From assembly GCF_027620315.1 (NCBI RefSeq), contig NZ_JAPNNL010000004.1, positions 1 to 64,000 on the forward strand: DNA of 64,000 nt. The letters run 5' to 3'. This DNA comes from Nonomuraea corallina (GTDB lineage: Bacteria > Actinomycetota > Actinomycetes > Streptosporangiales > Streptosporangiaceae). Of the stretch, positions 8,938 to 50,769 are shown piece after piece. How positions within the stretch are numbered: the stretch's first letter is position 1; the number at the start of each line of letters is the position of its first letter. The position numbers and the translations under genes are program-made. Below the pieces are notes generated by a model that was given only the letters and a program-made list of their open reading frames with translations, did not search any database and had not been told where the DNA came from.

Positions 8938-9838
8938 TGTTCGAGACGGCGAGGGGGACGCTCTGAACGAGAGCCGCGAGTTGCTGGGCCGGTTCCTGCG
9001 CGAGCGCCGCGCCAGGATCACCCTCAGCCAGGCGGGGCTCCCCGCCCGGCGGGCGCGCCGGGGGAGAACCCTCACTCAGGAGGACGTCGCCTACCTCACG
9101 GGCTACTCGATCCGTACGATCAGCGCGCTGGAGCAGGGAGCCGAGCACCGGCCCACCCCCGGCCTGCTGGAGGCCATAGCGTCGGCGCTGCGGCTCAGCC
9201 AGGACGAGCGCAGCGTCCTGTGGTATCTCGCGAACGGCACCCCGCCCCCCGAGCCCGACAGCGTGACCGAGCCCGACCCGGCGCTGCACCGTCTGGTGAA
9301 CGCCCTCGAACCGCATCCCGCCTACGTGACCGACGACCTGTGGAACGTCCAGGGCCAGAACTCCGCGTTCGCCCGGTGGATCTGCGACTTCACCGCCATG
9401 CCCGCCGATCAGCGCACGATCCTGCACTGGTTCTTCCTGCACGAGCACTCCAGGCACGTCATGGTCGACTGGGAGTACGAGGCGACGGCGCTGATGTCGC
9501 TGGTCCGCGGCCGGGCGATGCGGTCGCCGCGCGGCCACGAGCTGATGGCCGTGGTGGACGACCTCCGCGAACGCAGCCCGGACGCCGAACGCATCTGGGC
9601 GGGCGGCACCGATCTGCTCGTCCAGGGCCCGTCCAGGCCGATGCTCTTCCGCGAGCCGGGCCGCACCGGCGTTCCCCGGCCGGACGACGAGGACCATCAC
9701 GTCCAGTTGACGATCACCACGCTCGCTCCGGTGCGGGAGGGCGCGGGTCATCGGCTGCTGGCCTTCCTCCTGCCTGACGGCTACCTGGCGCCCGCCGGCT
9801 CCGACGGGGTCTGCGCCGCCTGCCACCCGGCCCGCTGA
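8897..9838 (+). CDS. XRE-family regulator with MmyB-like ligand-binding domain
   Basis: Predicted DNA-binding transcription regulator, up to 313 residues. An XRE helix-turn-helix (about 50-110) includes LTQEDVAYLTGYSIRTISAL. The C-terminal half, from HPAYVTDDLWNVQGQNSAFA onward, is the PAS-like MmyB fold seen in actinobacterial XRE proteins and thought to bind a small ligand. The start is uncertain: the ATG at 8897 lies inside a degenerate repeat and has no good ribosome site; in-frame TTG at 8933 is an alternative. It ends 6 bp from the convergent sigma-factor stop. Confidence 0.85.
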   Translation: MPLPAIPFPATPLPVRDGEGDALNESRELLGRFLRERRARITLSQAGLPARRARRGRTLTQEDVAYLTGYSIRTISALEQGAEHRPTPGLLEAIASALRLSQDERSVLWYLANGTPPPEPDSVTEPDPALHRLVNALEPHPAYVTDDLWNVQGQNSAFARWICDFTAMPADQRTILHWFFLHEHSRHVMVDWEYEATALMSLVRGRAMRSPRGHELMAVVDDLRERSPDAERIWAGGTDLLVQGPSRPMLFREPGRTGVPRPDDEDHHVQLTITTLAPVREGAGHRLLAFLLPDGYLAPAGSDGVCAACHPAR

Positions 9839-9844
9839 CGCGCC

Positions 9845-10336
9845 TCACGGAGTTGCCAGCAGGGCCGACAGTCTGCGCAGGCCGCGGGACGTGCGGGCCT
9901 TGACGGTGCCGAGCGGCACCCGCAGCCGCTCGGCGATCTCGCGCTGGCTCAGGTCGCCGAAGTAGGCCAGCTCGATCGCCTGCCGCTGGGCGTGGGACAG
10001 CTCGGCCAGCGCCCTGTCGAGCCGGTCGCGGTCGGCGAGGTCGTCCACCTGGGAGCGCCCGCGTCCCGGCGGGTCGCCGGCCTCCTCCAGCGGCACCGTG
10101 ACGGGCCGGCGGGCGCGCAGGTGGTCGACGGCGCGGCGATGGGCGATGGCGAAGATCCAGGCGGCCAGGCTCCTGGACGGGTCGTACCTCTCGCGCGAGC
10201 GCCAGACGTCCGCGAAGACGACCTGCACCAGGTCCTCGACGTCCTGGGCGGGCACGAAGCGGCGCAGGTAGGAGCGCACGGCCGGGCCGTGCGCGCGGTA
10301 GCACGCGCTGAGCGATTCCTCGTCACTGATCCGCAT
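9845..10336 (-). CDS. ECF-type RNA polymerase sigma factor
   Basis: Small two-domain sigma-70 factor, 163 residues. Region 2 is at about 20-85 (DVEDLVQVVFADVW, then AAWIFAIAHRRAVDHL) and region 4 at about 105-160 (LSQREIAERLRVPLGTVKAR). The ATG at 10336 follows GAGGGG by 8 bases and is preferred over the GTG at 10351. No anti-sigma gene adjoins it. It lies downstream of the MerR/B12 regulator on the same strand (89-bp gap). In Streptomyces a light-induced ECF factor (LitS) pairs with LitR beside carotenoid genes, so the same role is plausible here but not shown. An A/T-rich stretch at 10354-10380 may hold its promoter. Confidence 0.93.
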   Translation of the reverse strand: MRISDEESLSACYRAHGPAVRSYLRRFVPAQDVEDLVQVVFADVWRSRERYDPSRSLAAWIFAIAHRRAVDHLRARRPVTVPLEEAGDPPGRGRSQVDDLADRDRLDRALAELSHAQRQAIELAYFGDLSQREIAERLRVPLGTVKARTSRGLRRLSALLATP

Positions 10337-10425
10337 GGCCCTGCCCCTCACCCGAAAAACCTATTCAAAACTTATTCATAGCCGGGCATAGGGGGATGCC
10401 ACAAGTCCTCAGGTGAAAGCCGTGC

Positions 10426-11523
10426 TCAGCCGAGCGTGGCCGCGATGCGCGCGATGGCCTCGGGCAGCGTCGACACCCGGACGACGCCCGCAGGCGGCTC
10501 GCCCTGCCAGCCGAGCCCGCCGATGACGATCTCGCACGCCGGGCGGAGCCTCGGCAGGGCCGCGAGCGGGGCGGTGTCGCCGGTGATCGCCTGCTGCGAC
10601 CAGACGAACACCACCACCGGGCCCAGCCGCCGCATCGCGTGGGCCAGCGCCGCGTAGGGGGTGCGCGCGCCGAGCACCCGGGTCTGCACGCCGACCTCGG
10701 CGAGCCCGGCGGCCAGCGCGTGCACCGGCAGGCTGTGCTGCTCGTCCTCGGCGCAGGCCAGCAGCACCGGACGGCCCTCGTGCGGCGGGACGCCGCGGGC
10801 GATGCGGTGCAGCGCCGCCTGGGTCCGGTCCGACAGCAGGTGCTCCACGTCGATGCCGGCGCCGGTGTCGTCCTGGCGGCGGCAGATGGTGTCGAAGACG
10901 GGCAGCAGGAGCCGCTCCCACGTCCACACCACGCCGTGCCCGGCCAGCGTCTCCTCGATCAGGCCGGAGACCTCGTGACTGTCGAGCATGAGCGCGGCAC
11001 GAGCCAGCGCGGCCGTGGCCGGCCGCCCGCCGGCGCCGGTCACGGAAGAGCCGGTCGCGGGGGCGTCGGTCACGGAAGAGCCGGTCGCGGGGGAGCCGGT
11101 CACGGGGGAGCCGGTCACGGAAGAGCCGGTCGCGGGGGAGCCGGTCACGGGGGAGCCGGTCACGGAAGAGCCGGTCGCGGGGGCGCCGGTGGTGCCGGTG
11201 ACGGGCGTGCCCATCGGAGGTGTGCCCGGCTGGGCTTCCTCGCCGGGTTCCGGCGGGCCGGGGGGCGCGGCGGGCAGGGCCAGGGCGAGTCTCGCCGCCT
11301 CCGCCGGCCCCAGGCCCGTGGCGATCAGGCGTTTCATCTCGGCCAGCCGCCGCAGGTCGGTGGCGTCGTACCGGCGGTGGCCGCCCGCGGTGCGGCGGCT
11401 GGGCCCCAGGCCGTAGCGGAGGTTCCAGGTGCGCAGCGTGGGCGCGGGCACACCGAGGCGACGGGAGGCGGCTCCGATGCCGTAGCCCGCGTCCTCCACG
11501 TTGTCCGGTGTCTCCTCGGCCAT
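10426..11523 (-). CDS. MerR-family regulator with cobalamin-binding domain (LitR/CarH type)
   Basis: Predicted light- or B12-dependent repressor of the carotenoid genes. From the ATG at 11523 (GGGAAG six bases upstream) it has 365 residues. The MerR winged helix spans about 14-82 (AASRRLGVPAPTLRTWNLRY, GHRRYDATDLRRL). A low-complexity linker of VTGSP/ATGSS repeats spans about 110-165. A helical bundle plus Rossmann B12-binding domain spans about 175-365. The lower axial ligand motif reads EDEQHSLP, with the histidine kept and the usual glycine replaced by proline; the EH pair in GIDVEHLLS is present but no Trp occupies the place expected from CarH. It is divergent from crtE and upstream of the ECF sigma gene. 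Confidence 0.88.
   Translation of the reverse strand: MAEETPDNVEDAGYGIGAASRRLGVPAPTLRTWNLRYGLGPSRRTAGGHRRYDATDLRRLAEMKRLIATGLGPAEAARLALALPAAPPGPPEPGEEAQPGTPPMGTPVTGTTGAPATGSSVTGSPVTGSPATGSSVTGSPVTGSPATGSSVTDAPATGSSVTGAGGRPATAALARAALMLDSHEVSGLIEETLAGHGVVWTWERLLLPVFDTICRRQDDTGAGIDVEHLLSDRTQAALHRIARGVPPHEGRPVLLACAEDEQHSLPVHALAAGLAEVGVQTRVLGARTPYAALAHAMRRLGPVVVFVWSQQAITGDTAPLAALPRLRPACEIVIGGLGWQGEPPAGVVRVSTLPEAIARIAATLG
11039..11188 (-). repeat. 15-bp minisatellite within MerR/B12 linker
   Basis: Ten consecutive 15-bp units occur without spacers. They alternate GTCACGGAAGAGCCG, GTCGCGGGGGAGCCG and GTCACGGGGGAGCCG. Bases 11069-11113 and 11114-11158 are identical 45-bp blocks. Each unit codes for five residues (such as GSSVT, GSPAT, GSPVT) in the regulator linker, so length changes would keep the frame. 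Confidence 0.95.
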
Positions 11524-11717
11524 GGTCTTCCCGCTGACGTTCGACGTGTCCGACCATCTTTTCGCGGTTACGGACCTGCTTGGACGCATGGAGCAGGCGT
11601 GTCCCCCGTCGAATCCCGGCATCCGCTGGTTACCGTGAAGAGGCGATTCGAGATCGCGTGCAACCGGGTCAGCTCCTCCTGCGAAGACTTCCCATAGCGA
11701 CAGAAGGGGCAGCGTGC

Positions 11718-12761
11718 ATGGACACGGTGATCGCGCGAACGACCCACGTGCGCGAACAGGTCGACCGGCATTTGGCGCGGTTGCTGGACCAGCAGGTGCG
11801 CCGGCTCGGCTTCCTGGATCCGGCGGAGATCGGTCTGGTGCGCGAGTACCTGGCGGCGTTCGTCCTGGGGGGCGGGAAGAGGCTGCGGCCCTCGTTCGTC
11901 TACTGGGGCTACCGGGCGGCCGGCGGCGAACGGCTGGAGCCCGTGCTGCCCGCCGCCTGCGCCGTGGAGCTGGTGCACGCGGCGGCGCTGCTGCTGGACG
12001 ACGTGATGGACGAGGCGGGCTCGCGGCGTGGCCGGCCGGCGGCGCACGTCGCGCTGGCCGAGCTGCACCGGCGGTCCGGCTGGCGGGGCGACGCCGGCCG
12101 GTTCGGCGAGTCGGCGGCGACCCTGCTCGCGCTGCTGGCGCTGAGCTGGGCCGACGCCGCGCTGCTGGACACGGGGCCGCACCTCGGGGCTTCGCTCGAC
12201 CTCCTCACCCAGCTGCGGGTGGAGGCGATCGGCGGCCAGTACCTCGACCTCGCCTGTACGGCCGGCGCCCGGACGGGTGAGGAGCCGTCGCGGGTGATCT
12301 CGCTCTACAAGTCGGGCAAGTACACCGTCGAGCGGCCCCTGCATCTCGGTCACGCCGTGGCGGACGGCTCCCCGGAGACGCGCCGCACGCTGAGCGCGTA
12401 CGCGATCCCCCTGGGCGAGGCTTTCCAGCTCAGGGACGACGTCAACGGCGTGTTCGCCGACCCGGCGCGCACCGGCAAGCCCGCCGGGGCGGACCTGCTC
12501 CAGGGCAAGGCGACCTACCTGCTCGCCTACGCCAGGAGGAAGACGGGCAGCGCGCTCCTGGACGACATCACCGACCAGCGGGGGGTGGCGGCGGCGCGGG
12601 AGCTGATCGTGGAGTGCGGGGCGCTCGACGCGGCCGAGCGGCGCATCGCCGAGCTGGCCGACGAGGCGGTCACGGCGCTGGACCGGCCGCCCGGCATCCC
12701 GCACGAGGCCAGGAGGGCGCTGGCGGACCTGGCCGCCCTGTGCACGGAAAGGGACTTCTGA
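11718..12761 (+). CDS. crtE: Geranylgeranyl diphosphate synthase-type polyprenyl synthetase
   Basis: Trans-isoprenyl diphosphate synthase, 347 residues, supplying GGPP for carotenoids. The first aspartate-rich motif is LLLDDVMDEAG near residue 93; the second is FQLRDDVNGVFAD near 238, of the DDxxG form common in actinobacteria. GGGKRLRPSF near 50 binds isopentenyl diphosphate. The ATG at 11718 follows AGAAGGGG; the upstream extension in frame is not family-like. It is the first gene of crtE-crtI-crtB-plsX, each overlapping the next, and is divergent from the MerR/B12 gene across a 194-bp regulatory gap. Confidence 0.93.
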   Translation: MDTVIARTTHVREQVDRHLARLLDQQVRRLGFLDPAEIGLVREYLAAFVLGGGKRLRPSFVYWGYRAAGGERLEPVLPAACAVELVHAAALLLDDVMDEAGSRRGRPAAHVALAELHRRSGWRGDAGRFGESAATLLALLALSWADAALLDTGPHLGASLDLLTQLRVEAIGGQYLDLACTAGARTGEEPSRVISLYKSGKYTVERPLHLGHAVADGSPETRRTLSAYAIPLGEAFQLRDDVNGVFADPARTGKPAGADLLQGKATYLLAYARRKTGSALLDDITDQRGVAAARELIVECGALDAAERRIAELADEAVTALDRPPGIPHEARRALADLAALCTERDF

Positions 12762-14215
12762 TGAGCTCCGTGGTCGTCGTCGGCGCGGGCCTGGGCGGGC
12801 TGTCGGCCGCCATCCACCTGGCGGCGGCCGGTCGCGAGGTCACCGTGGTGGAGGCCCTCGACGAGCCCGGCGGCTGCTGCGGAACCGCCCGCGCCGGCGC
12901 GTACCGCTTCGACACCGGCCCGTCCGTGCTCACCATGCCGGACGTGCTCGCCGAGGTCTTCGGGGCCGCCGGGCAGGAGCTGCGGGACTGGCTGCCGCTG
13001 CGCCGTCTCGATCCCTCGTACCGGATGGTCTTCGACGACGGGTCGCGGCTGGACGTGCGGGCGGAGCGTGAGGCGATGACGGCGGAGGTCCGCGCGGTGT
13101 GCGGGCCGGCGGAGGCGGCCCGCTACGAGCGCTACCGGAGCCTGCTCGACGAGCTGTTCCGGGTCGAGTGGCCGGCGTTCATCGACACGGACATGACCCG
13201 GCTGCGCGCCCTGGCCCGGCCTGCGGCGCTGCTGCGGCTGGCCCGGCTGGGCGGGTTCCGCCGGCTGGACCGCCTGGCGGCCCGCTATCTGACGGACCCG
13301 CGGCTGATCAAGGCGCACACGTTCCAGTCGCTGTACGTGGGACTGTCGCCGCAGCGCGCGCTGGGCATCTACGCGGTCATCGCGCACATGGACACCGTCG
13401 GCGGCGTGTACTTCCCGCGCCACGGCGGCATGCACGCCATCCCCGCGGCCATGGCGGCGCTGCTGGAGAAGCTGGGCGCGAACCTCCGCTACGGCACACC
13501 CGCCGAACGGGTCGAGACGGACGGCGACGGCGTCACCGGCGTGCTGCTGCGGGACGGGGAACGGCTGGCGGCCCGGCACGTCGTCGTGGCCTGCGACCGG
13601 CTGGCGGCCCGGCGGCTGCTTCCCGCCCGCGCGGGCGACTGGCGGCTGCGGCGTCCTCGTCACTCCCCGTCGTGCCTGGTGATGCACGTCGGCCTGGACC
13701 GCCCGCCGACCGGCCAGGCGCACCACACGCTGCACTTCGGCCGGGACTGGAGCGAGACGTTCACCGCGCTGGAGGCGGGCCGGCCGCAGCCCGACCCGAG
13801 CCTGCTGGTCACCTGCCCGGAGCCGGACGGCGAGGCCGCGCCGGCCGGGCACGCCACGCTCAGCGTCCTGGAACCCGCGCCCAACCTGCGGCACGCCGAC
13901 TGGGACCGGCTGCGCCCCCGGCTGGAGTCGCGGCTGCTCGACCGCATGGCGCGACTCGGCTACGGCGACCTGTCGGGCGCGCCCCGGCTGGTGCTGGACC
14001 CGCCCGCCTGGGCGGCGCGCGGGCACACCGCGGGCACCCCGTTCGCGCTGGACCACCGCTTCACGCAGACGGCGTGGCTGCGCCCCTCCGCCGTGGCCCG
14101 GCGGGTGCCGGGGCTGCACTTCGCCGGCATGTACACCGCGCCCGGAGTGGGGGTGCCGCCCGTGCTCATCTCCGGCCGGCTCGCCGCCGAACGCATCCTG
14201 GAGGAGACCCGTTGA
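12761..14215 (+). CDS. crtI: Phytoene desaturase
   Basis: FAD-dependent CrtI-type desaturase, 484 residues, converting phytoene to lycopene or a related polyene. The N-terminal dinucleotide motif is VVVVGAGLGGLSAAIHLA; the C-terminal FAD signature is LHFAGMYTAPGVGVPPVLIS. RFDTGPSVLTMPDVL near 50 is a strong CrtI motif. The ATG at 12761 shares its A with the crtE stop (TGATG), so translation is coupled. The stop overlaps the crtB TTG start. Number of desaturation steps is not readable. Confidence 0.95.
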   Translation: MSSVVVVGAGLGGLSAAIHLAAAGREVTVVEALDEPGGCCGTARAGAYRFDTGPSVLTMPDVLAEVFGAAGQELRDWLPLRRLDPSYRMVFDDGSRLDVRAEREAMTAEVRAVCGPAEAARYERYRSLLDELFRVEWPAFIDTDMTRLRALARPAALLRLARLGGFRRLDRLAARYLTDPRLIKAHTFQSLYVGLSPQRALGIYAVIAHMDTVGGVYFPRHGGMHAIPAAMAALLEKLGANLRYGTPAERVETDGDGVTGVLLRDGERLAARHVVVACDRLAARRLLPARAGDWRLRRPRHSPSCLVMHVGLDRPPTGQAHHTLHFGRDWSETFTALEAGRPQPDPSLLVTCPEPDGEAAPAGHATLSVLEPAPNLRHADWDRLRPRLESRLLDRMARLGYGDLSGAPRLVLDPPAWAARGHTAGTPFALDHRFTQTAWLRPSAVARRVPGLHFAGMYTAPGVGVPPVLISGRLAAERILEETR

Positions 14216-15111
14216 CGCTCACCGCCAGCTACGAACGCTGCCGGCGGCTCCACGCCCGCTACGGCCGCTCCTACTACCTGGCCACCCGGCTGCTGCCGCA
14301 GTGGAAGCGGCGGCACGTGCACGCGCTGTACGGTTTCGCCCGGTACGCCGATGAGATCGTCGACTCGTTCACGATGACCGCCGACCGGGCCCGCGCGCTG
14401 GACGCCCTGACCGTCAAGGTCGAGGCCGGGCTCGCCGGGGCGAAGCAGGACGATCCGGTGCTGCCGGCCTTCCTGCACACCGTTCACTCCTTCGGCATCG
14501 ACCACGACGACATCGCGATCTTCCTCGCGTCCATGCGCGCGGACCTCACGGTGACCCGGTACGCGACCTACGACGACCTGCTCGGCTACATGGCCGGGTC
14601 GGCCGCCGCCATCGGCACCATGATGCTGCCGGTGCTGGAGCCGGCCCCCGGGTGCGAGGAGGCCGCCCGCGAGCCCGCCCGCCAGCTCGGTCTGGCCTTC
14701 CAGCTCACCAACTTCCTGCGCGACGTGCGCGAGGACCACGCCAGGGGCCGCGTCTACCTGCCGATGGAGGACCTGGACAAGTTCGAGGTGGACCCGCGGG
14801 AGCTGGGCGCCCGCCGTACCGGGCCCGCCCTGCGCGACCTGCTGGCCTTCGAGGCGGGGCGCGCCCGCGACCACTACCGCGCCGCCGCGCGTGGCGTCGG
14901 CCTGCTCGCCCCCTCGTCCCGGCCGTGCATCCGCGCCGCCTTCGACCTGTACGGCGGCATCCTCGACGAGATCGAGCGCCGGGGCTTCGAAGTCCTGGCA
15001 GGCAGGGTACGGGTGCCGCGCCGGCGCAAGGCGGCCGTCTTCGCCCGCCACCTGCTGGCCTCCGCCGAAGCGGGCAGGGCCGAACGCCGCGTCACCGTGG
15101 AGCTCCCGTGA
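14212..15111 (+). CDS. crtB: Phytoene synthase
   Basis: Head-to-head GGPP condensing enzyme of 299 residues. Both aspartate-rich motifs are present: YADEIVDSF near 45 and RDVREDHARGRVYLP near 170. Start: the only suitable codon is TTG at 14212, overlapping the crtI stop (TTGA) and placing the conserved SYERCRRLHARYGRSYYLA at the N terminus. An in-frame upstream start would lie deep inside crtI. The stop overlaps a GTG of the plsX frame by 4 bp. Confidence 0.95.
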   Translation: MTLTASYERCRRLHARYGRSYYLATRLLPQWKRRHVHALYGFARYADEIVDSFTMTADRARALDALTVKVEAGLAGAKQDDPVLPAFLHTVHSFGIDHDDIAIFLASMRADLTVTRYATYDDLLGYMAGSAAAIGTMMLPVLEPAPGCEEAAREPARQLGLAFQLTNFLRDVREDHARGRVYLPMEDLDKFEVDPRELGARRTGPALRDLLAFEAGRARDHYRAAARGVGLLAPSSRPCIRAAFDLYGGILDEIERRGFEVLAGRVRVPRRRKAAVFARHLLASAEAGRAERRVTVELP

Positions 15112-16163
15112 CGGCCCGGCCTGTGACGCCCGTGACGGCCGCGCCTGTGACGACCGCGCCTATTACGACGCCCGCAGCCTCGCGTCCCCTCCCGCCCGTG
15201 GGAGCACCGGTGGTCCTGGACGCGATGGGCGGCGACCACGGGCCGGCCGCCACGGTCGCCGGCGCCGTGTCGGCGTGGCGGACGCACGGGGTGCCGGTGG
15301 TCCTGGTCGGCGATCGGGACCGGGTGGAACGGGAGCTGCGCGGGCACGGCGCCGCCGGGGAGATCCCGGTGGTGCACGCCGAGGACGCCGTGCCGATGGC
15401 CGAGCGCGGCGCCGCCGCCGCGACGCTGACGACGTCGAGCCTCGCCGTGGGCTGCGAGCTGGTCAGCCGGGGCGAGGGCGGGGCGTTCGTCTCCGCCGGG
15501 TCCACCGGCGCGGTGGTCTCGTGCGCGGTGCGCGGCATCGGCCGGGCCGACGGGGTGCTGCGGCCCGCTCTGGCCGTGGCCCTGCCCTCGCTGACGGGCG
15601 GCGCCAGCGTGCTCGTGGACGCGGGCGCGACCGCAGACCCGACCCCGGCCATGGTCGCCCAGTTCGCCCAGTTGGGCGCGGGCTACGCGCGGACCGTGCT
15701 GGGCCGCCCCGACCCGCTGGTGGGGCTGCTGTCGATCGGCTCCGAGCCGGGCAAGGGCAACCGGCTGACCCGCCGCGCCGGGGACCTGCTCGCCGCCCTG
15801 CCGCTGCGCTTCCACGGCAACGTGGAGGGCCACGACGTGCTGGCGGGCACCGTCGACGTGATCGTCACCGACGGCTTCACCGGCAACGTCGTGCTGAAGA
15901 ACGTCGAAGGCTGCGTCCGCACGGCGCTGACCATGGTCGCCCAGGCCGGCATCGCCTCCCCGGAACGGCTCACCGAGGTCGCCCGCCGCTACGACCCGGA
16001 GACCCACGGCGGGGCCGCCCTCCTGGGCCTGCGCGGCACGGTCGTCGTCGCGCACGGCTCCTCCCCCGCGGCCACGATCGCCCGCGCCTGCGTGGTGGCG
16101 CACGCGCTGGCGGCGCAGGACCCGGCGGCCGGCATCGAGGCCGTGGCGGAACCGGTGTCATGA
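15108..16163 (+). CDS. plsX: Phosphate acyltransferase PlsX, embedded in carotenoid operon
   Basis: PlsX makes acyl-phosphate from acyl-ACP and phosphate. Family signatures are intact: VVLDAMGGDHGPAATVAGAV at the core N terminus, SAGSTGAVVSCAV, LSIGSEPGKGNRL, and GNVEGHDVLAGTVDVIVTDG with FTGNVVLK. Length from 15108 is 351 residues, including a repetitive leader of Val/Thr/Ala/Pro (about 30 residues). There are in-frame GTGs at 15108, 15123, 15132, 15147, 15198 and 15210; homology favours 15198 or 15210, coupling to crtB favours 15108. PlsX normally serves phospholipid synthesis next to fatty-acid genes, so its place after crtB is unusual. The stop is 5 bp from the stop of the convergent crtA-like gene. 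Confidence 0.92.
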   Translation: MTARPVTPVTAAPVTTAPITTPAASRPLPPVGAPVVLDAMGGDHGPAATVAGAVSAWRTHGVPVVLVGDRDRVERELRGHGAAGEIPVVHAEDAVPMAERGAAAATLTTSSLAVGCELVSRGEGGAFVSAGSTGAVVSCAVRGIGRADGVLRPALAVALPSLTGGASVLVDAGATADPTPAMVAQFAQLGAGYARTVLGRPDPLVGLLSIGSEPGKGNRLTRRAGDLLAALPLRFHGNVEGHDVLAGTVDVIVTDGFTGNVVLKNVEGCVRTALTMVAQAGIASPERLTEVARRYDPETHGGAALLGLRGTVVVAHGSSPAATIARACVVAHALAAQDPAAGIEAVAEPVS

Positions 16164-16168
16164 CCGGC

Positions 16169-16936
16169 TCAGCGCAGCGGGTCGATCCCGTCCCAGGTGC
16201 CTTCGGCGGCGTACGGGGTGAAGCGGGCGAACAGTTCCTCGGCGTACCAGTCGTCCGCCCGCACCCGCTCGATGACCTGCCGGTGCGCCTCGCCCCGGTA
16301 GGCGAAGGCGCGCACCGCCTCCCGGTCCCGCCACAGGGAGAACGTCGCCTGCCGGGCCAGCGGCCACTCGCCGACGCCGATCGAGGCCAGGCAGCCGTCC
16401 TGCCGCCGCAGCAGCTCGTCGACCGGCGGCACCGACCGGTAGAACGCGACCAGGCGGCGGGGCCGGATCGACGCCCTGGTGAGCACGGCCACCGGCCCCC
16501 CGCGCCCCGCGGACGTCCCCTCACCCCCGGAGCCGAAAGCACGTTCGACCCTCTGGGGTTCCGCGGGAGTGTCGCCGGATGGCGGTGGGAGGGCGAAGGG
16601 GTCGCGGCCCGACCAGGCGCCGCGCGAAGCCGTCGGGGCGAGCCGCACCTGCCAGAACTCGGACGCCTCCGACCGCCAGCGGGCCGCGATCGGCGAGGCG
16701 CGCAGGAAGGCGTCCAGATCGTCCTCGCCGCGCCAGACCGCGAACAGCGCCCACCGGCGCAGGTCGGCGCCCAGGGACATGGCCCGGCCCTGGCCGGTGC
16801 CGAGCAGCCGCCAGAACAGCAGCCCGCCGGCCCGTCGCAGCAGCGGCCGGTCGAAGGCCATGTGCCGCATCGCGCGGGCGCTGTCGTACCGGATGAGGTG
16901 GAAGGACGCGATGGTTGAGGTGCTGGTGTCGGTCAT
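16169..16936 (-). CDS. Spheroidene monooxygenase (CrtA)-like carotenoid oxygenase
   Basis: A 255-residue protein resembling CrtA, which introduces a keto group on acyclic carotenoids. Matching features are the N-terminal strand IASFHLIRYDSARAMRHMAF, DLRRWALFAVW near 80, VAFYRSVPPVDELLRRQDGC near 160, the heme-site-like region with ARQATFSLWRDREAVRAFAY near 195-215, and DDWYAEELFARF near the end. It lies on the opposite strand between plsX and the plsY-like gene. Its start at 16936 is needed to keep the first beta strand, so its first 26 bases overlap the start of the plsY-like gene. Confidence 0.75.
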   Translation of the reverse strand: MTDTSTSTIASFHLIRYDSARAMRHMAFDRPLLRRAGGLLFWRLLGTGQGRAMSLGADLRRWALFAVWRGEDDLDAFLRASPIAARWRSEASEFWQVRLAPTASRGAWSGRDPFALPPPSGDTPAEPQRVERAFGSGGEGTSAGRGGPVAVLTRASIRPRRLVAFYRSVPPVDELLRRQDGCLASIGVGEWPLARQATFSLWRDREAVRAFAYRGEAHRQVIERVRADDWYAEELFARFTPYAAEGTWDGIDPLR

Positions 16937-17507
16937 CGCCGGCTACCTGCTCGGCTCGGTGCCGGTGGCGGTCCTGGTGGCGCGGGCGCACGGCGTCGAC
17001 CCGCGCGACATCGGCGACCGCAACCCCGGGTACTGGAACGTCAAGGAGCAGCTCGGCCGGCGGGCGGCGGTGCCGGTGTTCGCCGGCGACCTCCTCAAGG
17101 GCACGCTGGCCGCCCTCGTGGGCCTCCTGGTCAGCGGCGCCGACACCGCCACGCTGGGGGTCGTCACCGGGGCGAGCGTGCTGCCGGTGTACCTGGCGGT
17201 GGCGGCGGCCATGGTGGGCCACGCGTGGCCGGTGTTCGCCGGCTTCCGCGGCGGGCGGTCGATCCTGACCTTCGCGGGGGGCGTCGCGGTCATCTGTCCT
17301 CCGGCGTTCGTGCTGGCGATCACCGCGCTGGCGGTCACGGCCGTGGCGCTGCGTTCGTTCGCGGTGGGGGCGCGCCTGGCGGTGTTCGGCGTGCCGGTGC
17401 TGCAGCTGCTGTTCGCGCCGGTGGAGCTGGTGGCGGCCACCGGGCTGCTGATGTGCCTCATCGGTCTGCGCTTCGGTCAGGCCGCGCTCGCCGCCCGCCG
17501 CCGCTGA
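16911..17507 (+). CDS. PlsY-like acyl-phosphate acyltransferase with altered signature motifs
   Basis: Multi-pass membrane protein of 198 residues with PlsY architecture. PlsY moves an acyl group from acyl-phosphate to glycerol 3-phosphate. The frame and topology match (VEVLVSVIAGYLLGSVPVAV as first helix), but the three loop signatures are changed. The usual SGNxGATN block reads GDRNPGYWNVKEQLG, and the GHxFPvFxxFKGGKG block reads GHAWPVFAGFRGGRSILT. This suggests a different acceptor. The ATG at 16911 (or 16893) overlaps the start of the divergent crtA-like gene. Its 3' end overlaps the convergent GT2 gene by 50 bp. No other PlsX/PlsY partner is in the window. Confidence 0.8.
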   Translation: MVEVLVSVIAGYLLGSVPVAVLVARAHGVDPRDIGDRNPGYWNVKEQLGRRAAVPVFAGDLLKGTLAALVGLLVSGADTATLGVVTGASVLPVYLAVAAAMVGHAWPVFAGFRGGRSILTFAGGVAVICPPAFVLAITALAVTAVALRSFAVGARLAVFGVPVLQLLFAPVELVAATGLLMCLIGLRFGQAALAARRR

Positions 17508-18624
17508 CGTCCGGGTACGTACGACCGCGCCAGGTCCGTACGGGGCGCAGCGTCGCCTGGGTGAGCCGGAACGCCGCGGCGGGGTCGAGCAGCGGCGAGA
17601 GCAGCAGTCCCGGTCCAGGGTCGCGGTAGCTGCCGCGCAGCGCGCCCGCGAGCAGCAGCCGCACCGCCAGCAGCGCCGCGTCCAGGCGGGTGGCGCGGCC
17701 GGCCGCCAGGCGGAGCACCGGCAGCGCCCCGGTCAGCCAGATGACGGCCAGGTCGGCGGCCTGCCAGCCGGGGGCGGTGACGTCGCGCAGCGGGAGCGAG
17801 CGGCCCCACTCACGCCACAGCTCGCCCACCGAGTCGTGCATGTCGACCTCCAGCAGGCTGCCCGCGTCCAGGAAGCCGACCGTCCAGCCTCGGCCAGCCA
17901 GGCACCGGGCCAGGGCCACGTCGTCGGTCATCCGGTCGCGTACCAGCGCGAACCCATCCACGTCGGTCATCCGGGCCCGGCGGAAGGCCATGCACTGGCC
18001 GTTGGCGACGGTGCGGTGCGGCGGCGGCGGGCTCGCGGGGCCGACGGGCCCGAACCGGTAGACCAGCGTCGCCAGCATGGCGGCGTGCAGGGCCTGTTCC
18101 AGCACGCCGTCGCAGACGAACCGGGGGGCCGCGCTCACCAGGTCGTAGCGCTCCAGCGTGGCCGCGAGCGCGCCGAACAGTCCGGGCCCCGGCCGCGCGT
18201 CGGCGTCCAGCGTGACCACGACCTCGCCGCCGGCCGCCGCCACCCCCTGACGCAGCGCCCACTGCTTGCCCACCCAGCCGCCGGGCAGCGGCTCGGCGGT
18301 GACGACCTTGGCCCCGGCCGCCGCCGCGACCTCGGCCGTACCGTCGGTGGAGCCGTCGTCGACCACGATCACCTCGGTGACGGCCGGGTCGCCGAGCGCG
18401 GCCCGCAGGCACGGCCCGATCCTGGCCGCCTCGTCGCGCGCGGGAATCACCACGGAGATCGTCACGCCCGCGTCGCCGCGCGGCCGGAGCGGCGGCAGCC
18501 GCCGCCGGCCCCGCGCGAGCCTGGCCAGCGCCACGCCGGCGGCGACCCCCTGCACGACCGTCAACGGCCTCACCGCGAACCGTCCCACACGCACCACCGC
18601 CTCACCGCGAGCCGTCCCAGGCAC
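17458..18624 (-). CDS. Family 2 glycosyltransferase, probable carotenoid glycosyltransferase
   Basis: GT-A fold enzyme, 388 residues from GTG 18624. The core shows ISVVIPARDEAARIGPCL near 55, VIVVDDGSTDG near 85, the metal-binding TLDADARPGPG near 140 and VANGQCMAFRRARM near 205. Hydrophobic segments near 305-350 indicate membrane association. The type resembles CrtQ/CruC-like enzymes that glycosylate hydroxylated carotenoids. The start is uncertain because a 30-32 bp spaced repeat covers the region; GTGs further in are possible. It is the third gene in the order cruF, crtD-like, GT2, with a 7-bp gap to the desaturase stop. Confidence 0.8.
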   Translation of the reverse strand: MPGTARGEAVVRVGRFAVRPLTVVQGVAAGVALARLARGRRRLPPLRPRGDAGVTISVVIPARDEAARIGPCLRAALGDPAVTEVIVVDDGSTDGTAEVAAAAGAKVVTAEPLPGGWVGKQWALRQGVAAAGGEVVVTLDADARPGPGLFGALAATLERYDLVSAAPRFVCDGVLEQALHAAMLATLVYRFGPVGPASPPPPHRTVANGQCMAFRRARMTDVDGFALVRDRMTDDVALARCLAGRGWTVGFLDAGSLLEVDMHDSVGELWREWGRSLPLRDVTAPGWQAADLAVIWLTGALPVLRLAAGRATRLDAALLAVRLLLAGALRGSYRDPGPGLLLSPLLDPAAAFRLTQATLRPVRTWRGRTYPDVSGGGRRARPDRSADR

Positions 18625-18649
18625 CGCCGCCTCACCGCGAACCGCCTCG
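18568..18649 (+). repeat. Three imperfect 20-bp direct repeats at GT2/desaturase junction
   Basis: CCTCACCGCGAACCGTCCCA (18568-18587) recurs with one change at 18600-18619 and partly at 18630-18649. The copies are spaced 32 and 30 bp. They span the end of the desaturase gene and the 5' end of the GT2 gene, giving a repeated peptide in the GT2 leader (ARGEAV, VRVGRFAV). They look like slippage products and blur the GT2 start. Confidence 0.7.
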
Positions 18650-20101
18650 CAGGTCGGTGGTCGTGGGCGGTGCTGGGTGGAAGTCCTGGGTCACCAGGTC
18701 GGCCACGATGCGGGCGCCCAGGGTCACCATGGGCAGCCCGCCGCCCGGGTGCGCGGAGCCGCCGACCAGGTACAGGCCGCGCCGGGGGCCGCGGTTGCCG
18801 GGGCGCAGGAAGGCCGACGTCCGGCCCCGGTAGGCGCTGCCGTAGATGGCGCCGCCCCAGGCCCCGTAGCGGTCGCGCAGGTCCGCCGGGGTGAAGACGT
18901 CGGCGAAGCGCATCCGGCCCGCCAGGTCGTGCCCGCGCTCGGCCAGCCGTTCCAGGACCAGGTCCCGGTACGCCTCCACGCCGATCGGCCACCGGCCGGG
19001 GTCGCGGGCGGGCACGTTGACCAGCATCGTCCAGTTCTCCGCGCCAGCCGGGGCCTGCGTCGGGTCGTCCACCGCCGAGCAGCCGACGTAGACCGTCGGG
19101 TCCAGAGGCGGGCGGCCGCGGTCGAAGATGTCGGCGAACTCCCGTTCGTAGTCCGCCGAGAACAGCACCGAGTGGTGCGGCAGCCCGGGCGTGCGCCCCT
19201 CCACTCCGGCCAGCACCAGCAGCGCCGACGACGAGCGACCCAGCCGGGCGATCCGGCGCAGCCGCCCGCGATCGGGCAGCAGGCGGCCGTACAGCGCGGC
19301 GGCGTCGGTGTTGGCGACCACGACGTCCGCCCGGACCCTCTCCCCGCTCGCCAGTCGCACCCCTGTGACGGCGGAGCCGCCGGCCTCGATCGCCTCGACG
19401 GGCTCGGACAGGAACACCTGCACGCCGGCGGCCTTCAGCAGCAGGCCCAGGTCGTCGGCCAGCCGGGGCAGGCCGCCCGGCGCGTACCAGACGCCCTGGC
19501 CGTGCTCCAGCGCGGGGACGCAGCCCAGCGCGGCGGGCGCGCGGTACGGGCTGGACCCGGCGTAGGTGGCGTAGCGGCCGACGTACTGCCGCAGCCGGGC
19601 GTCACGGAAGTGGCGGCGGGCCAGGCCGTCGAGCGTGCGCGCGGGCGCCACGGCCAGCAGGTCGGAGAGCCGGGCCTCGCCGGGGCGCCGGATCAGCGGC
19701 CCGGCGAACACCGTCCGGTTCGCCGCCTCCAGCGCGCCGCGGGCCCAGTCGTGGAAGGCGCGCCACGCCCGCCCCTCGCCCGGGGCCAGCCGGTCCACCG
19801 CTTCGGCCATGCGCTCGGGGTCGCGGTGGGCGTCCAGCACCGTGCCGTCGGCGAACCGGTACCGGCACAGCGGGTCCGGTTCGATCAGCTCGCGTTCCAG
19901 CCCCAGCTCGCGGAAGAGGCCGGGCATGGTCAGCAGCGACGGCCCGAGGGAGAAGGTGAACCCGTCACGGTGGTGCTCGGCCAGCTTGCCGCCCAGCCGG
20001 GGCAGTTGCTCGTACAGCCGCACCTCGTGTCCCCGGCGGGCCAGCAGCAGCGCGCACGCCATACCGCCCACGCCGCCGCCGATCACCGTCACTTCTGCCA
20101 T
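18632..20101 (-). CDS. CrtD/CrtI-family carotenoid desaturase
   Basis: FAD-dependent CrtI-superfamily enzyme, 489 residues. The N-terminal dinucleotide motif is VTVIGGGVGGMACALLLARR; FTFSLGPSLLTMPGLF is near 55; the C-terminal FAD motif is LYLVGGSAHPGGGLPMVTLG. This second CrtI-like gene in the locus resembles CrtD, which adds a 3,4 double bond to 1-hydroxy acyclic carotenoids. Its neighbours CruF (which would make the 1-hydroxy substrate) and GT2 agree with this. ATG 20101 overlaps the cruF 3' end by 13 bp. Exact bond specificity is inferred only. Confidence 0.85.
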   Translation of the reverse strand: MAEVTVIGGGVGGMACALLLARRGHEVRLYEQLPRLGGKLAEHHRDGFTFSLGPSLLTMPGLFRELGLERELIEPDPLCRYRFADGTVLDAHRDPERMAEAVDRLAPGEGRAWRAFHDWARGALEAANRTVFAGPLIRRPGEARLSDLLAVAPARTLDGLARRHFRDARLRQYVGRYATYAGSSPYRAPAALGCVPALEHGQGVWYAPGGLPRLADDLGLLLKAAGVQVFLSEPVEAIEAGGSAVTGVRLASGERVRADVVVANTDAAALYGRLLPDRGRLRRIARLGRSSSALLVLAGVEGRTPGLPHHSVLFSADYEREFADIFDRGRPPLDPTVYVGCSAVDDPTQAPAGAENWTMLVNVPARDPGRWPIGVEAYRDLVLERLAERGHDLAGRMRFADVFTPADLRDRYGAWGGAIYGSAYRGRTSAFLRPGNRGPRRGLYLVGGSAHPGGGLPMVTLGARIVADLVTQDFHPAPPTTTDLRGGSR

Positions 20102-20862
20102 GTCCGCCTCCAGGCCAGCGCGGCGAACGCGCCCATCGTGATCCCGCCGACCACCGCCACCACCGGGTCGGTCGGGTCGAACACCGCGGCGAAGGCGACC
20201 GTCTCCATGACCGCCATGACCGTGTACAGCGCGAGCAGCCCGCGCCCCGGCGGGGCGTCGCCGCCGATGCGCCCGGCGGCCAGCATGACCACGGCCGACA
20301 CCAGCAGCCAGCCGGCGAAGTTGCTGAGCGGGATGCCCCGGTAGAAGCCGTCGTCCGCCGCCCACGTCCACAGGCCGAGGCGGACCATCTGCGGGTCGAG
20401 GAACAGGTCCCACGCCGTCATCGCGGCCGCGCCCACGCAGACCCGGGCCCAGCCGCCGGAGGGGACGATGGCGGCGGCCACCGCGTACGCCGCGAGCCCC
20501 ATGCCGCCCCACGCCACCGCCACCACGAGGGGCACGCCGCCCACCTGGGGCCACAGCACGTCGCTGTAGGCGTACGCGCCGAACGGGAAGCCGGTCAGCA
20601 CCCCGACCACCTCGGCCGCGTACCCGGTCAGCACGGCCGCGCCGAACGCGGCCAGCGCCCTGCGCGTCCCCCACGCGCCGGCGGCGAAGGCGACGGCGGA
20701 CACGGCGAGCACCGCGACGATCAGCCCGGTGAACCGTTCCGGCCGCGCGGCCAGCCCGGACGCCACCTGCAGGCCGACCATGGTCAGCAGGGACAGGACT
20801 CCCAGCGCGCGTGCCGGCCCGAGGGCCACGCGTCCCGCCTGTTCGCTTCTCGTCTGTTCCAC
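20089..20862 (-). CDS. cruF: Carotenoid hydratase CruF-like membrane protein (DUF422)
   Basis: Polytopic membrane protein, 257 residues and about 7 helices, of the CruF/DUF422 carotenoid biosynthesis family, which hydrates the terminal 1,2 double bond of acyclic or monocyclic carotenoids. Characteristic loops are FPFGAYAYSDVLWPQVGGVP near 115, AWDLFLDPQMVRLGLWTWA near 170 and FYRGIPLSNFAGWLL near 195. It is the promoter-proximal gene of cruF, crtD-like, GT2, divergent from the DUF523 protein across a 172-bp gap that should hold both promoters. Confidence 0.85.
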   Translation of the reverse strand: MEQTRSEQAGRVALGPARALGVLSLLTMVGLQVASGLAARPERFTGLIVAVLAVSAVAFAAGAWGTRRALAAFGAAVLTGYAAEVVGVLTGFPFGAYAYSDVLWPQVGGVPLVVAVAWGGMGLAAYAVAAAIVPSGGWARVCVGAAAMTAWDLFLDPQMVRLGLWTWAADDGFYRGIPLSNFAGWLLVSAVVMLAAGRIGGDAPPGRGLLALYTVMAVMETVAFAAVFDPTDPVVAVVGGITMGAFAALAWRRTWQK

Positions 20863-21034
20863 ACACTGTCTTTCGAAGCCGTCGCGATCACGGATGCACG
20901 TGCCCGGTGGCGTCCCAAACGAGCGTCATGGCCGTCCGAGCATCGGGGCAAGATTCTCCCGGCGCCGCCGTGACCTGGCGGGACGCAGGCGCGCGGGGGG
21001 CGTGCGAGCGGCCGTGGTGGGCAGCTTGTGTGGC

Positions 21035-21994
21035 ATGGCTGAGGACCAGCGCCTGGGCAGGCCGCGAGTGGCGGTGTCGAGCTGCCTGCTCGGCGAGCGC
21101 GTACGGCACAACGGCAATCACAGCCGGTCCCGCTACCTCACCGACGACCTGAAGCCGTTCGTCGACTGGGTGCCGATCTGCCCGGAGATGGAGATCGGCC
21201 TCGGGACGCCCCGCGAGTCGATGCGGCTCGAACAGTCCCCCGGCGGCCCCCGGCTCATGACCCGCACCAGCCGCCGCGACCTCACCCCGGCCATGACGGC
21301 GCTGGCCGCCGAGCGGTCCGCCCGGCTGGACGTCGACGGGTACGTGTTCAAGGCCAAGAGCCCGAGCTGCGGCATCCACGGCATCCCGCTCTACGCCGGG
21401 AGCACGGCCCTGTCCCGGCAGCACCGGGGGCTGTTCGCCGACGCGGTGATCGAGGCGCACCCGCTGCTGCCGGTCGAGGACGAGGGCCGGCTCAACGACG
21501 CCGTGCTGCGTGAGGCGTTCACCGAGCGGATCTTCGCCCTCGCGCGGCTGCGTGAGCTGCTGGAGAGCGACTGGCGGCCCCGCGACCTGGTGGCGTTCCA
21601 GTCCCGGCACAAGATGCAGCTGCTCGCGCACTCACCCGTGGGCTACCGCGAGACCGGCCGCGTGGTCGCCGAGGCGGGCACCCGCCCGCGTGAGGAGCTC
21701 GCCGGCGCGTACGGGACGGCGTTCCGCACCGCGATGGCGGTCCGGGTGTCGGTCGGGCGCAACGTCAACGTCCTGCAGCACTGCCTCGGCATGCTCGGCG
21801 ACGAGCTCGACCCGGTGCGCCGCGCCGACCTGGCCGAGGTCATCGGCTCCTACCGGGCGCGCCGGGTGGCGCTCAGCGTGCCGCTCGCGCTGCTGCGCCA
21901 CCACGCCCGCGGCGAGGCCGCGACCTACGTCCAGGAGCAGACCTTCTTCTCCCCGTACCCGGACGAGCTGGGCCTGCGCAACCACGTCGGGTGA
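21035..21994 (+). CDS. DUF523-DUF1722 (YbgA-like) protein
   Basis: Two-domain protein of 319 residues. The N-terminal DUF523 part (1-150) has three conserved cysteines in VSSCLLGERVRHNG, PICPEMEIGLGTPRE and KAKSPSCGIH, as in the TudS thiouracil-desulfurase family, where they hold a [4Fe-4S] cluster. The C-terminal DUF1722 part (160-310, FQSRHKMQLLAHSP) is the YbgA domain. In E. coli ybgA sits next to the photolyase gene. Here it adjoins a carotenoid locus with a photosensor-type regulator, but no photolyase is in the window. The start at 21035 begins right before the conserved RVAVSSCLLG. Confidence 0.87.
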   Translation: MAEDQRLGRPRVAVSSCLLGERVRHNGNHSRSRYLTDDLKPFVDWVPICPEMEIGLGTPRESMRLEQSPGGPRLMTRTSRRDLTPAMTALAAERSARLDVDGYVFKAKSPSCGIHGIPLYAGSTALSRQHRGLFADAVIEAHPLLPVEDEGRLNDAVLREAFTERIFALARLRELLESDWRPRDLVAFQSRHKMQLLAHSPVGYRETGRVVAEAGTRPREELAGAYGTAFRTAMAVRVSVGRNVNVLQHCLGMLGDELDPVRRADLAEVIGSYRARRVALSVPLALLRHHARGEAATYVQEQTFFSPYPDELGLRNHVG

Positions 21995-46798: not shown

Positions 46799-47003
46799 CC
46801 TCCTCGGCTATATGACCGGGAAGGCTAGTTGACTGTGAACTCAGTATGCAAGCGACTTCTAGGGTGTGTACACATCAGCTTGGCAGTGCTAGCGTGCTGT
46901 CAACGGTTGTGCGGTCGGAACGCTGGAGAAGCGCGTGTCCGTTGATGAGACGCCTGCAAGACTGAGCCGGATGTCCCACTGACTGAAGGAGATGGGCCAC
47001 CTC

Positions 47004-49442: not shown

Positions 49443-50679
49443 GCATTCGATAGGTATCCCAACGGAGGCTGACTGGCCAGAAAGCATACTTAGAGACCTC
49501 TGCCATTTGGTCTCGCGAGGGACAGCTCCAACATACGTCGAGAACAGCCCGGTCCTGGCAATCGGTCAACGCTGTATTCAGAATTCTGGTTTTGACGCCA
49601 GCAATGCTCGCCCACACGATCGACGCCACAAGCGCATTCTGTGGGCTGCTCCTGGAGACGTACTTCTCAACTCCACCGGCACTGGAACGATTGGCCGTAG
49701 CTGCATCTTCGACAAGTCGAATATGTTCATGGTGGACAGTCATGTGACAGTGATCCGCGTTGACCGAACAAAAGCAGAGCCGCGCTGGATCAATGCACTA
49801 CTCCGTACAAGTTGGGGCCAGCGACACCTAGAGTCACATTGCTACACAGGATCCACCAACCAGATCGAACTTTCGCGCAGCGAGTTGACATGGATGTCAG
49901 TTCCAGTACCACCATCCAGGGAGCAGCGGCGGATCGCGGAGATCCTCGACACTCTCGACGCTCAGATCGAAAACCAGCAAGATGTTCTCGAAAAAATCAA
50001 GGCCGTCACAACTGCAGTCATCACTGATGAGCTCACGCGAATCGTCGACTTGGCCGATGCGGTCCTTCCGCTCGTAACACTTGCGAGCATCACGAGCGGC
50101 GTGACCCTAGGAACAGAGACTGGCGGTTCAGTCGAGCTTCCTTACTTGCGTGTGGCAAATGTCCAGGACGGATTTATCGACACATCCGAGATGAAGAACG
50201 TGCGAGTCAGTCGTGCGGACGCGAAGCGCTACCTGCTCGAAGCAGGAGATGTTCTTCTGACTGAGGGCGGGGACCTCGACAAGCTCGGGCGCGGTGCGGT
50301 GTGGGACGCCAGGATTGACCCTTGTATCTGCCAAAACCACGTCTTCCGCGTTCGTTGCGACAAGACTCGCCTGCTACCAGAGTATCTTGCAGCGTATTCC
50401 TCATCACACCAGGGAAAGCGCTACTTTCTCAGCATCGCTAAGCAAACGACAAATCTGGCCAGCATCAACTCGACTCAGCTAAAAAACATGCCTATCCCGC
50501 TTCCCGCCATCGAACTCCAGAAACGACTTATCGATGTGGCAAGCACTGGAGCAGGGCGAATCGCCAGCGAGTCCGATCGACTGCAGCGCCTGAAGGTATT
50601 CAGGCAGGGTTTGATGGAAGACCTGCTGACCGGACGGGTTCGGGTTCCGGAGAGGGAAGCCGTACACGAAAGTCTTTAG
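49435..50679 (+). CDS. hsdS: Type I restriction-modification specificity subunit
   Basis: 414 residues with two target recognition domains (about 10-180 and 205-385) and conserved helical spacers: [20 protein letters not shown] near 160 and the C-terminal [22 protein letters not shown] content and codon use are clearly unlike hsdM and hsdR, as expected for horizontally exchanged recognition domains. ATG at 49435 overlaps hsdM by 8 bp. The recognised DNA sequence cannot be read from the protein. Confidence 0.95.
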
Positions 50680-50769
50680 CCCCGACTTGGGCAGGCTCCT
50701 ACTTGTCCCGGTAACGCGGCTATTTGTTCGGGGGAACAATGTTAGACGGTTTACGGAGGGAGTCGGACG

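Follow-up and report, generated by a model that had tools for sequence, protein, structure and literature searches.

PlsY is the membrane enzyme that starts bacterial membrane-lipid synthesis. Here, we describe a divergent PlsY-like membrane protein (positions 16911-17507, + strand) and a second copy of PlsX, PlsX2 (15108-16163, + strand), which are encoded inside a carotenoid (crt) gene block of Nonomuraea corallina. The whole stretch analyzed, referred to below as the window, comprises the first 64,000 nucleotides of contig NZ_JAPNNL010000004.1 (C304) in a 7.56-Mb genome that is 99.9% complete. Based on sequence and profile matches, the block in the window reads crtE-crtI-crtB-plsX2-crtA-plsY-cruG-crtD-cruF. 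We consider it probable that PlsX2 and the crt-type PlsY acylate the sugar of a carotenoid glycoside via acyl-phosphate, the donor, acceptor, and product all being predicted ones.

Acylated carotenoid glycosides are known from Thermomicrobium and Rhodothermus, and the published accounts assign the acylation to a domain fused to CruF or to CruD; acylation of the glycoside sugar, the step predicted here, is likewise that of the carotenoid-glycoside acyltransferase CruD (Salinibacter, Rhodothermus, Chloroflexus) and of the CruF-fused acyltransferase domain proposed in Thermomicrobium (PMC2615216, PMC5822342, PMC4155588). The candidate in our locus, in contrast, is a PlsY-fold protein. CruD is presumably an LPLAT-type (PF01553) acyltransferase; none of the nine block proteins matched PF01553, and the five PF01553 acyltransferases of the genome all lie on contigs other than C304.

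In Nonlabens, CruF, CrtD, and CrtA-OH convert the psi end to a 1-hydroxylated, 3,4-desaturated, 2-hydroxylated end on the route to myxol-type ends (PMC11855829). The block encodes members of the same hydration, desaturation, and 2-hydroxylation families, together with a relative of CruG, whose model (NF045692) bears the name 2'-O-glycosyltransferase; a carotenoid glycoside is therefore expected here, to which our locus would add an acylation. The CruG-, CrtA-, and CruF-like proteins score below their NCBIfam cut-offs (for CruG, 257 versus 600 bits), so their names denote family likeness only.

Compared with PlsY itself (YgiH; PF02660, TIGR00023; structures 5xj5-5xj9), the crt type shares the predicted fold, His92, and a PlsX companion. 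It differs in scoring below the TIGR00023 cut-off, in the replacement of the glycerol 3-phosphate contacts and of Thr41, in forming a separate clade, and in occurring, among the loci examined, only in carotenoid loci. PlsX2, by comparison with PlsX (PF02504, TIGR00182), exceeds both cut-offs and has a largely conserved core; what sets it apart is that it is a second copy within the crt block. We found no acyl-phosphate-dependent carotenoid acyltransferase described in the open-licence literature of PubMed Central (PMC), where absence is not proof; the initial annotation of the window, made from the sequence alone, had likewise known of none.

Conserved gene neighborhood

Related loci were collected from 150 genomes drawn evenly from the GTDB family, the window genome included. 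Thirty of these genomes encode a window-type PlsY, always within a crt locus. The order crtA-plsY-cruG is kept in all 29 loci other than our own, and plsX2 lies in the block of 25 of them (it is absent in L041, L052, and L056, and L058 is a short contig). Scanning named genomes yielded 130 loci; the best 80 were kept and examined, and crtA-plsY-cruG was present in every one of them, a recurrence that, with that in the 29 family loci, exceeds chance, while plsX2 was present in 71. These loci come from Nonomuraea, Actinomadura, Streptosporangium, Microbispora, Planobispora, Planomonospora, Planotetraspora, Sphaerisporangium, Actinocorallia, Thermoactinospora, and Thermomonospora, and they also include one unclassified actinobacterial metagenome-assembled genome and two Acidimicrobiia.

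The arrangement extends beyond the family. In a phylum-wide draw of 396 genomes, where window-type matches scored 126 bits or more (the next match had 88), five genomes of other families carried it, with crtA and cruG flanking plsY in 5/5 and a 0.8-kb gap between plsY and cruG in L196. An order-level draw (198 genomes from the order of one of the five) added three loci, G577, G600, and G658; in G577 (L216), crtA lies 0.6 kb away from plsY. The PlsY sequences of G593 and G629 are identical to those of L155 and L154 and were not counted again. A ninth genome of this draw, G549, gave a match of 78 bits; its PlsY carries the ordinary motifs, and its stretch is devoid of crt genes. The initial annotation had proposed searching actinobacterial genomes for crt-linked plsX/plsY-like pairs, and with the eight loci of other families (8/8) the order around plsY recurs in every locus of the three sets.

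Two family genomes bear on the sequence of steps. L072 holds the only full crt cluster encountered that lacks cruG, and it also lacks plsY and plsX2; G012 (L071) has cruG in its block but neither plsY nor plsX2, in stretches of 19.9 kb each. In these two genomes only, the gene content agrees with an order in which hydroxyl, sugar, and acyl group follow one another. The adjoining CruF-, CrtD-, and CrtA-like genes would supply a 1-OH and a 2-OH, and the PlsY-like protein might acylate such a carotenoid hydroxyl directly, with no sugar in between. We regard this as very unlikely, given that cruG follows plsY in the gene order of all crt-type loci examined and that the crt cluster devoid of cruG has no plsY.

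Distribution in the family

A plsX gene was found in 145 of the 150 family genomes and any PF02660 protein in 33, leaving 117 without; lipid synthesis in the family is thus not generally dependent on this PlsY. As an observation in its own right, most PlsX proteins of the family are orphans with no recognized acyl-phosphate consumer. CruF (PF04240) was present in 35 genomes, and all 30 genomes with a window-type PlsY are among them (Fisher p 1e-26, a test that treats genomes as independent by descent and is uncorrected for kinship, although the counts are not independent in this sense). Together with the recurring crtA-plsY-cruG order, this bears out the assignment of the pair to the carotenoid locus made in the initial annotation. 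Of the 30 genomes with a window-type PlsY, 26 have at least two PlsX matches, versus 2 of the 120 others, and the four genomes lacking plsX2 in the block (G009, G016, G017, and G108) each still have one PlsX.

Five genomes have CruF without this PlsY (G012, G066, G001, G064, and G148), and all were retained in the 35. G012 and G066 have real crt clusters. G001, G064, and G148 have CruF-like matches at 28-36% identity in stretches devoid of other crt genes, an absence that carries little weight for G001 and G148, whose contigs are only 3.5 and 5.2 kb long; likewise, a second CruF-like match in G129 (38% identity) has no other crt gene in its stretch.

Three of the 33 genomes with PF02660 fall outside the crt-type count (G114, G079, and G117), and tblastn with crt queries detected no crt gene in their PF02660 stretches. 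The PlsY of G114 has canonical motifs and lies on a short contig, of which 1.4 kb was examined. Divergent PlsY-like proteins without nearby crt genes were seen in the other two genomes, two adjacent ones in G079 (L068:9389-11336) and one in G117 (L069, ~9573-10139). Further divergent PlsY-like proteins, which form a separate clade and likewise have no nearby crt genes, occur in G180 and G262 (L204 and L206).

Four of the other-family genomes (G305, G180, G262, and G227) encode a separate PlsY elsewhere that has Ser35, Arg45, Lys104, His177, and Asn180, position 41 being Ser in three of them and Ala in the fourth. The matches listed in the phylum draw include no second PlsY for G270.

Predicted fold and pocket of the PlsY-like protein

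The PlsY-like protein passes the PF02660 cut-off (109.6 bits, cut-off 24.1) and remains below that of the equivalog model TIGR00023 (84.1 bits, cut-off 137.2). An AlphaFold model built with 47 alignment rows reached a predicted local distance difference test score (pLDDT) of 88.7 and a predicted template-modeling score (pTM) of 0.87. It aligned with Aquifex aeolicus PlsY (5xj6) over 186 residues at 26% identity with Z 21.2, and Foldseek gave a template-modeling (TM) score of 0.75 to 5xj5. The best fold-search row other than PlsY had Z 6.3; this and the lower rows were taken as helical look-alikes. The protein is predicted to have the PlsY fold.

In the PlsY structure, Ser35, Arg45, Lys104, and Asn180 clamp the phosphate of glycerol 3-phosphate, and Ser142 and His177 contact its 2-OH; His92 and Thr41 are described as the only side chains touching acyl-phosphate, the Thr41 hydroxyl and the backbone binding the carbonyl (PMC5700162). 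We inspected these positions in 110 window-type rows, namely the window protein, 29 from the family, and 80 from the named-genome scan, with some strains present twice. Ser35 is replaced by Asp, Lys104 by Arg, and His177 by Phe in all 110 rows, and Asn180 by Ala in 109, with one gap. Arg45 gives way to Glu (94 rows), Gln (7), Asp (4), or Gly (2) and is kept in 3; Ser142 gives way to Ala (91), Thr (17), or Val (1) and is kept in 1. The window protein retains none of the six glycerol 3-phosphate contact residues, and at each position at least 107 of the 110 rows carry a replacement. His92 is kept in 110/110, and the phosphate-hole loop GG-[R/K] is likewise retained in all of them.

In seven ordinary PlsY rows, only position 142 departs from the usual residues, the A. 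aeolicus row being a fragment without positions 177-180. Distant copies of the crt type in G270 and G227 keep Lys104 and have Asp35, Trp41, Glu45, and Phe177. In A. aeolicus PlsY, the substitution H177F leaves 0.32% and N180A 4.6% of the activity (PMC5700162, Table 2), and R45A and S35A leave 1.1% and 4.8% (PMC5700162). The residue comparison supports the loss, in the PlsY-like protein, of the glycerol 3-phosphate contacts known from PlsY, and together with the TIGR00023 score it agrees with the description of this protein as divergent in the initial annotation. Asp35, Glu45, and Trp41 in place of the phosphate clamp would plausibly suit a neutral sugar.

Window-type sequences form one clade with support 100/100 in a tree of 69 PlsY rows, some of which were labelled window type by the motif NPG.WN. 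In a comparison with four Nonomuraea, the ratio of nonsynonymous to synonymous polymorphism (pN/pS) was 0.26-0.37 for plsY and 0.29-0.41 for plsX2, within the range of six crt genes (0.22-0.58). The loss of Thr41, His177, and Asn180 could also be read as a sign that the protein is inactive and acts as a membrane scaffold, or as a lipid or pigment carrier, for the carotenoid enzymes. We hold this to be very doubtful: the replacements are uniform (Asp35, Trp41, and Phe177 in 110/110), unlike decay, His92 is kept, and plsX2 lies alongside in 71 of the 80 scan loci.

PlsX2 and the question of a housekeeping pair

PlsX2 scores 252.6 bits with PF02504 and 247.8 bits with TIGR00182 (cut-off 243.4). 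It is 50% identical to a second PlsX of the genome, PlsX1 (contig C318, L070:8680-9687), which reaches 308 bits with PF02504. The consensus of 70 PlsX2 rows keeps 90 of the 116 positions common to Escherichia coli PlsX and PlsX1, and in one stretch of the alignment PlsX2 lacks ~13 residues relative to E. coli PlsX. Judged by this conservation, PlsX2 is predicted to make acyl-phosphate from acyl-acyl carrier protein (acyl-ACP) and phosphate.

The initial annotation had asked whether a second, housekeeping plsX/plsY pair exists elsewhere in the genome, and it would have taken the lack of another plsX or plsY as a sign that these are the housekeeping genes. PlsX1 provides the plsX of such a pair, and no further PF02660 protein was found in a profile search of the genome (E ≤ 0.001). 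The crt-type protein is thus the sole PF02660 protein of this genome, and it and PlsX2 both lie above their Pfam cut-offs, as would ordinary phospholipid enzymes placed in a crt locus by chance. A single PF02660 protein does not, however, show a housekeeping role, since 120 of the 150 family genomes do without this PlsY and the four other-family genomes mentioned above carry an ordinary PlsY besides the crt type. The replaced contact positions, among them two whose counterparts H177F and N180A nearly abolish or strongly reduce activity in A. aeolicus PlsY (PMC5700162), and the availability of five PF01553 acyltransferases in the genome also count against it. On the strength of distribution, pocket residues, and coexistence with ordinary PlsY, a housekeeping role was rejected, in keeping with the initial annotation; a chance placement of the ordinary pair is, in our estimate, extremely unlikely.

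Acyl donor and evidence against the proposal

Several observations weigh against acylation of a carotenoid glycoside through acyl-phosphate. All 110 rows have Trp in place of Thr41, which contacts the carbonyl of acyl-phosphate, and Phe or Tyr in place of Ala40, so that use of acyl-phosphate is not secured by the residues. In A. aeolicus PlsY, T41A keeps 4.75%, K104R 25%, and S142A 32% of the activity, and the mutant data in that report cover S35A, R45A, and T41A, not S35D, R45E, and T41W (PMC5700162). Four of the 29 family loci (one of them on a truncated contig) and 9 of the 80 scan loci have no plsX2 in the block, and the gene was not detected in the examined stretches of the eight loci outside the family; unless such loci draw on a PlsX encoded elsewhere, they cannot use acyl-phosphate. 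In the tree, a long branch leads to the crt clade and carries a long-branch warning. The nesting of CruF, CruG, and PlsY depends on two informative genomes, one of which, G012, has cruG and no plsY. Finally, our searches of the open-licence PMC literature brought up no carotenoid structure for these genera.

The exchange of Thr41 for Trp may reflect altered handling of acyl-phosphate or another donor, and it counts against unchanged PlsY chemistry. The crt-type PlsY could accordingly be a carotenoid or carotenoid-glycoside acyltransferase that takes acyl-CoA or acyl-ACP, with plsX2 serving fatty-acid balance or supplying acyl-phosphate elsewhere. The altered residues around the carbonyl site and the loci without plsX2 favor such a donor, and E. 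coli PlsX and PlsY are reported to have roles beyond the supply of lipid precursors (PMC11633183). Even so, we think it unlikely, because His92 and the GG-[R/K] phosphate-hole loop are invariant, because multiple PlsX copies go with this PlsY (26/30 versus 2/120), and because one PlsX is still present in each of the four family genomes whose block lacks plsX2.

Proposed pathway

In the acyl-phosphate pathway that we favor, CrtE, CrtI, and CrtB would form the C40 backbone, and CruF, CrtD, and the CrtA-like enzyme would convert its open psi end to a 1,2-dihydroxy-3,4-didehydro end. CruG would attach a sugar to this carotenoid end. PlsX2 would turn acyl-ACP and phosphate into acyl-phosphate, from which the crt-type PlsY, residing in the membrane where the carotenoid lies, would move the acyl chain onto a sugar hydroxyl; its pocket would have been remade, plausibly for a neutral sugar, with the phosphate hole for acyl-phosphate partly kept. 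With the gene content, conserved position, pocket replacement, and genome-level association documented above, the empty acylation step in the block would be filled by the PlsY-like protein, with PlsX2 making the donor.

The glycosylated hydroxyl is more likely the 2-OH introduced by the CrtA-like enzyme than the 1-OH introduced by CruF, by analogy with the CruG model name and with the 1,2-diol end made by CruF, CrtD, and CrtA-OH in Nonlabens. The initial annotation had the hydroxyl coming from CruF, the sugar from the GT2 enzyme, and the acyl group from PlsX and the PlsY-like protein. This interpretation is partly supported: the link of the pair to the carotenoid locus, its unlikeness to a housekeeping pair, and the loss of the known glycerol 3-phosphate contacts are borne out, the acylation of a sugar from acyl-phosphate is a prediction, and the source of the hydroxyl is the part that we would revise.

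More broadly, we lean toward the view that a PlsY-fold subfamily found in several actinobacterial families acylates carotenoid glycosides on their sugar, drawing its acyl-phosphate from a PlsX that is either dedicated or shared. If true, this would be, as far as the literature found goes, the first PlsY on record whose acceptor is not glycerol phosphate, and also the first carotenoid acyltransferase that combines a PlsY fold with an acyl-phosphate donor. The structure paper describes the acceptor pocket of PlsY as highly invariable and considers the enzyme attractive as a drug target (PMC5700162). A subfamily in which nature has rebuilt this pocket would demonstrate that acyl-phosphate chemistry is not confined to phospholipids and would reveal how the enzyme selects its acceptor. 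The enzyme that acylates a class of carotenoid glycosides in actinobacteria would also be identified, and a new tool for making acylated pigments would become available. Block-bearing strains of Nonomuraea, Streptosporangium, Microbispora, and Planobispora have culture-collection numbers, so the proposal is directly testable.

Gene arrangement and neighboring features

The genes crtE, crtI, crtB, and plsX2 stand in tandem on the + strand with short overlaps between them. The first encodes a crtE-like polyprenyl diphosphate synthase (11625-12761; PF00348, 138.9 bits; start codon as in the open reading frame (ORF) call), the second a member of the phytoene desaturase family, crtI (12758-14215; TIGR02734, 417.5 bits, above the cut-off), and the third a squalene/phytoene synthase family protein, crtB (14212-15111; PF00494, 249 bits). 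The GTG start of plsX2 at 15108 and the crtB stop at 15111 share the sequence GTGA, so the coordinates and the 4-bp overlap given in the initial annotation are correct; the overlap is not general, being seen in 22 of the 69 loci that have both genes. The ATG of the PlsY-like ORF at 16911 lies 747 bp beyond the plsX2 stop at 16163 (the earlier estimate was about 750 bp), and the ORF ends at 17507.

The crtA-, cruG-, crtD-, and cruF-like genes are all on the - strand, and their profile matches agree with the neighbors named in the initial annotation, CruG being the best match of the GT2 gene. They encode a protein of the spheroidene monooxygenase/carotenoid 2-hydroxylase family (crtA-like, 16169-16936; NF045923, 169.1 bits, cut-off 300), the cruG-like GT2 glycosyltransferase (17458-18624; best match NF045692), a protein of the 1-hydroxycarotenoid 3,4-desaturase family (crtD-like, 18632-20089; TIGR02734, 334.7 bits; NF045637, 314.4 bits, cut-off 580), and one of the carotenoid 1,2-hydratase family (cruF-like, 20089-20862; PF04240, 131.8 bits, above the cut-off; TIGR03460, 99.9 bits, cut-off 154.7).

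In the window, plsY overlaps crtA by 26 bp at its 5' end and the 3' end of cruG by 50 bp, running opposite to both. With start codons as called, plsY and crtA overlap in 68 of the 80 scan loci, and the 3' ends of plsY and cruG overlap in 78 of the 80, by a median of 50 bp. Overlaps on both sides leave little space for a promoter, and the three genes may form a non-contiguous operon, an idea raised by the overlaps themselves.

Next to the block lies a gene for a 2-thiouracil desulfurase-like/DUF1722 protein (20729-21994), a relative of which is found near the block in many related loci. A search for lycopene cyclase in the genome returned five PF05834 matches, all over the cut-off and the best at 47 bits; these may be other FAD enzymes or include a lycopene cyclase, in which case the product might not be open at both ends. 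Beside crtE, a sigma-70-family gene, probably of the extracytoplasmic function (ECF) type, and a MerR-type regulator (9845-11622, both - strand) are reminiscent of LitS/LitR, which exert light control over carotenoid genes in Streptomyces. Farther along the window, the type I restriction-modification genes hsdM and hsdR (46983-53937) have a G+C content of ~62-68% versus ~73% elsewhere and, by this lower value, were perhaps acquired.

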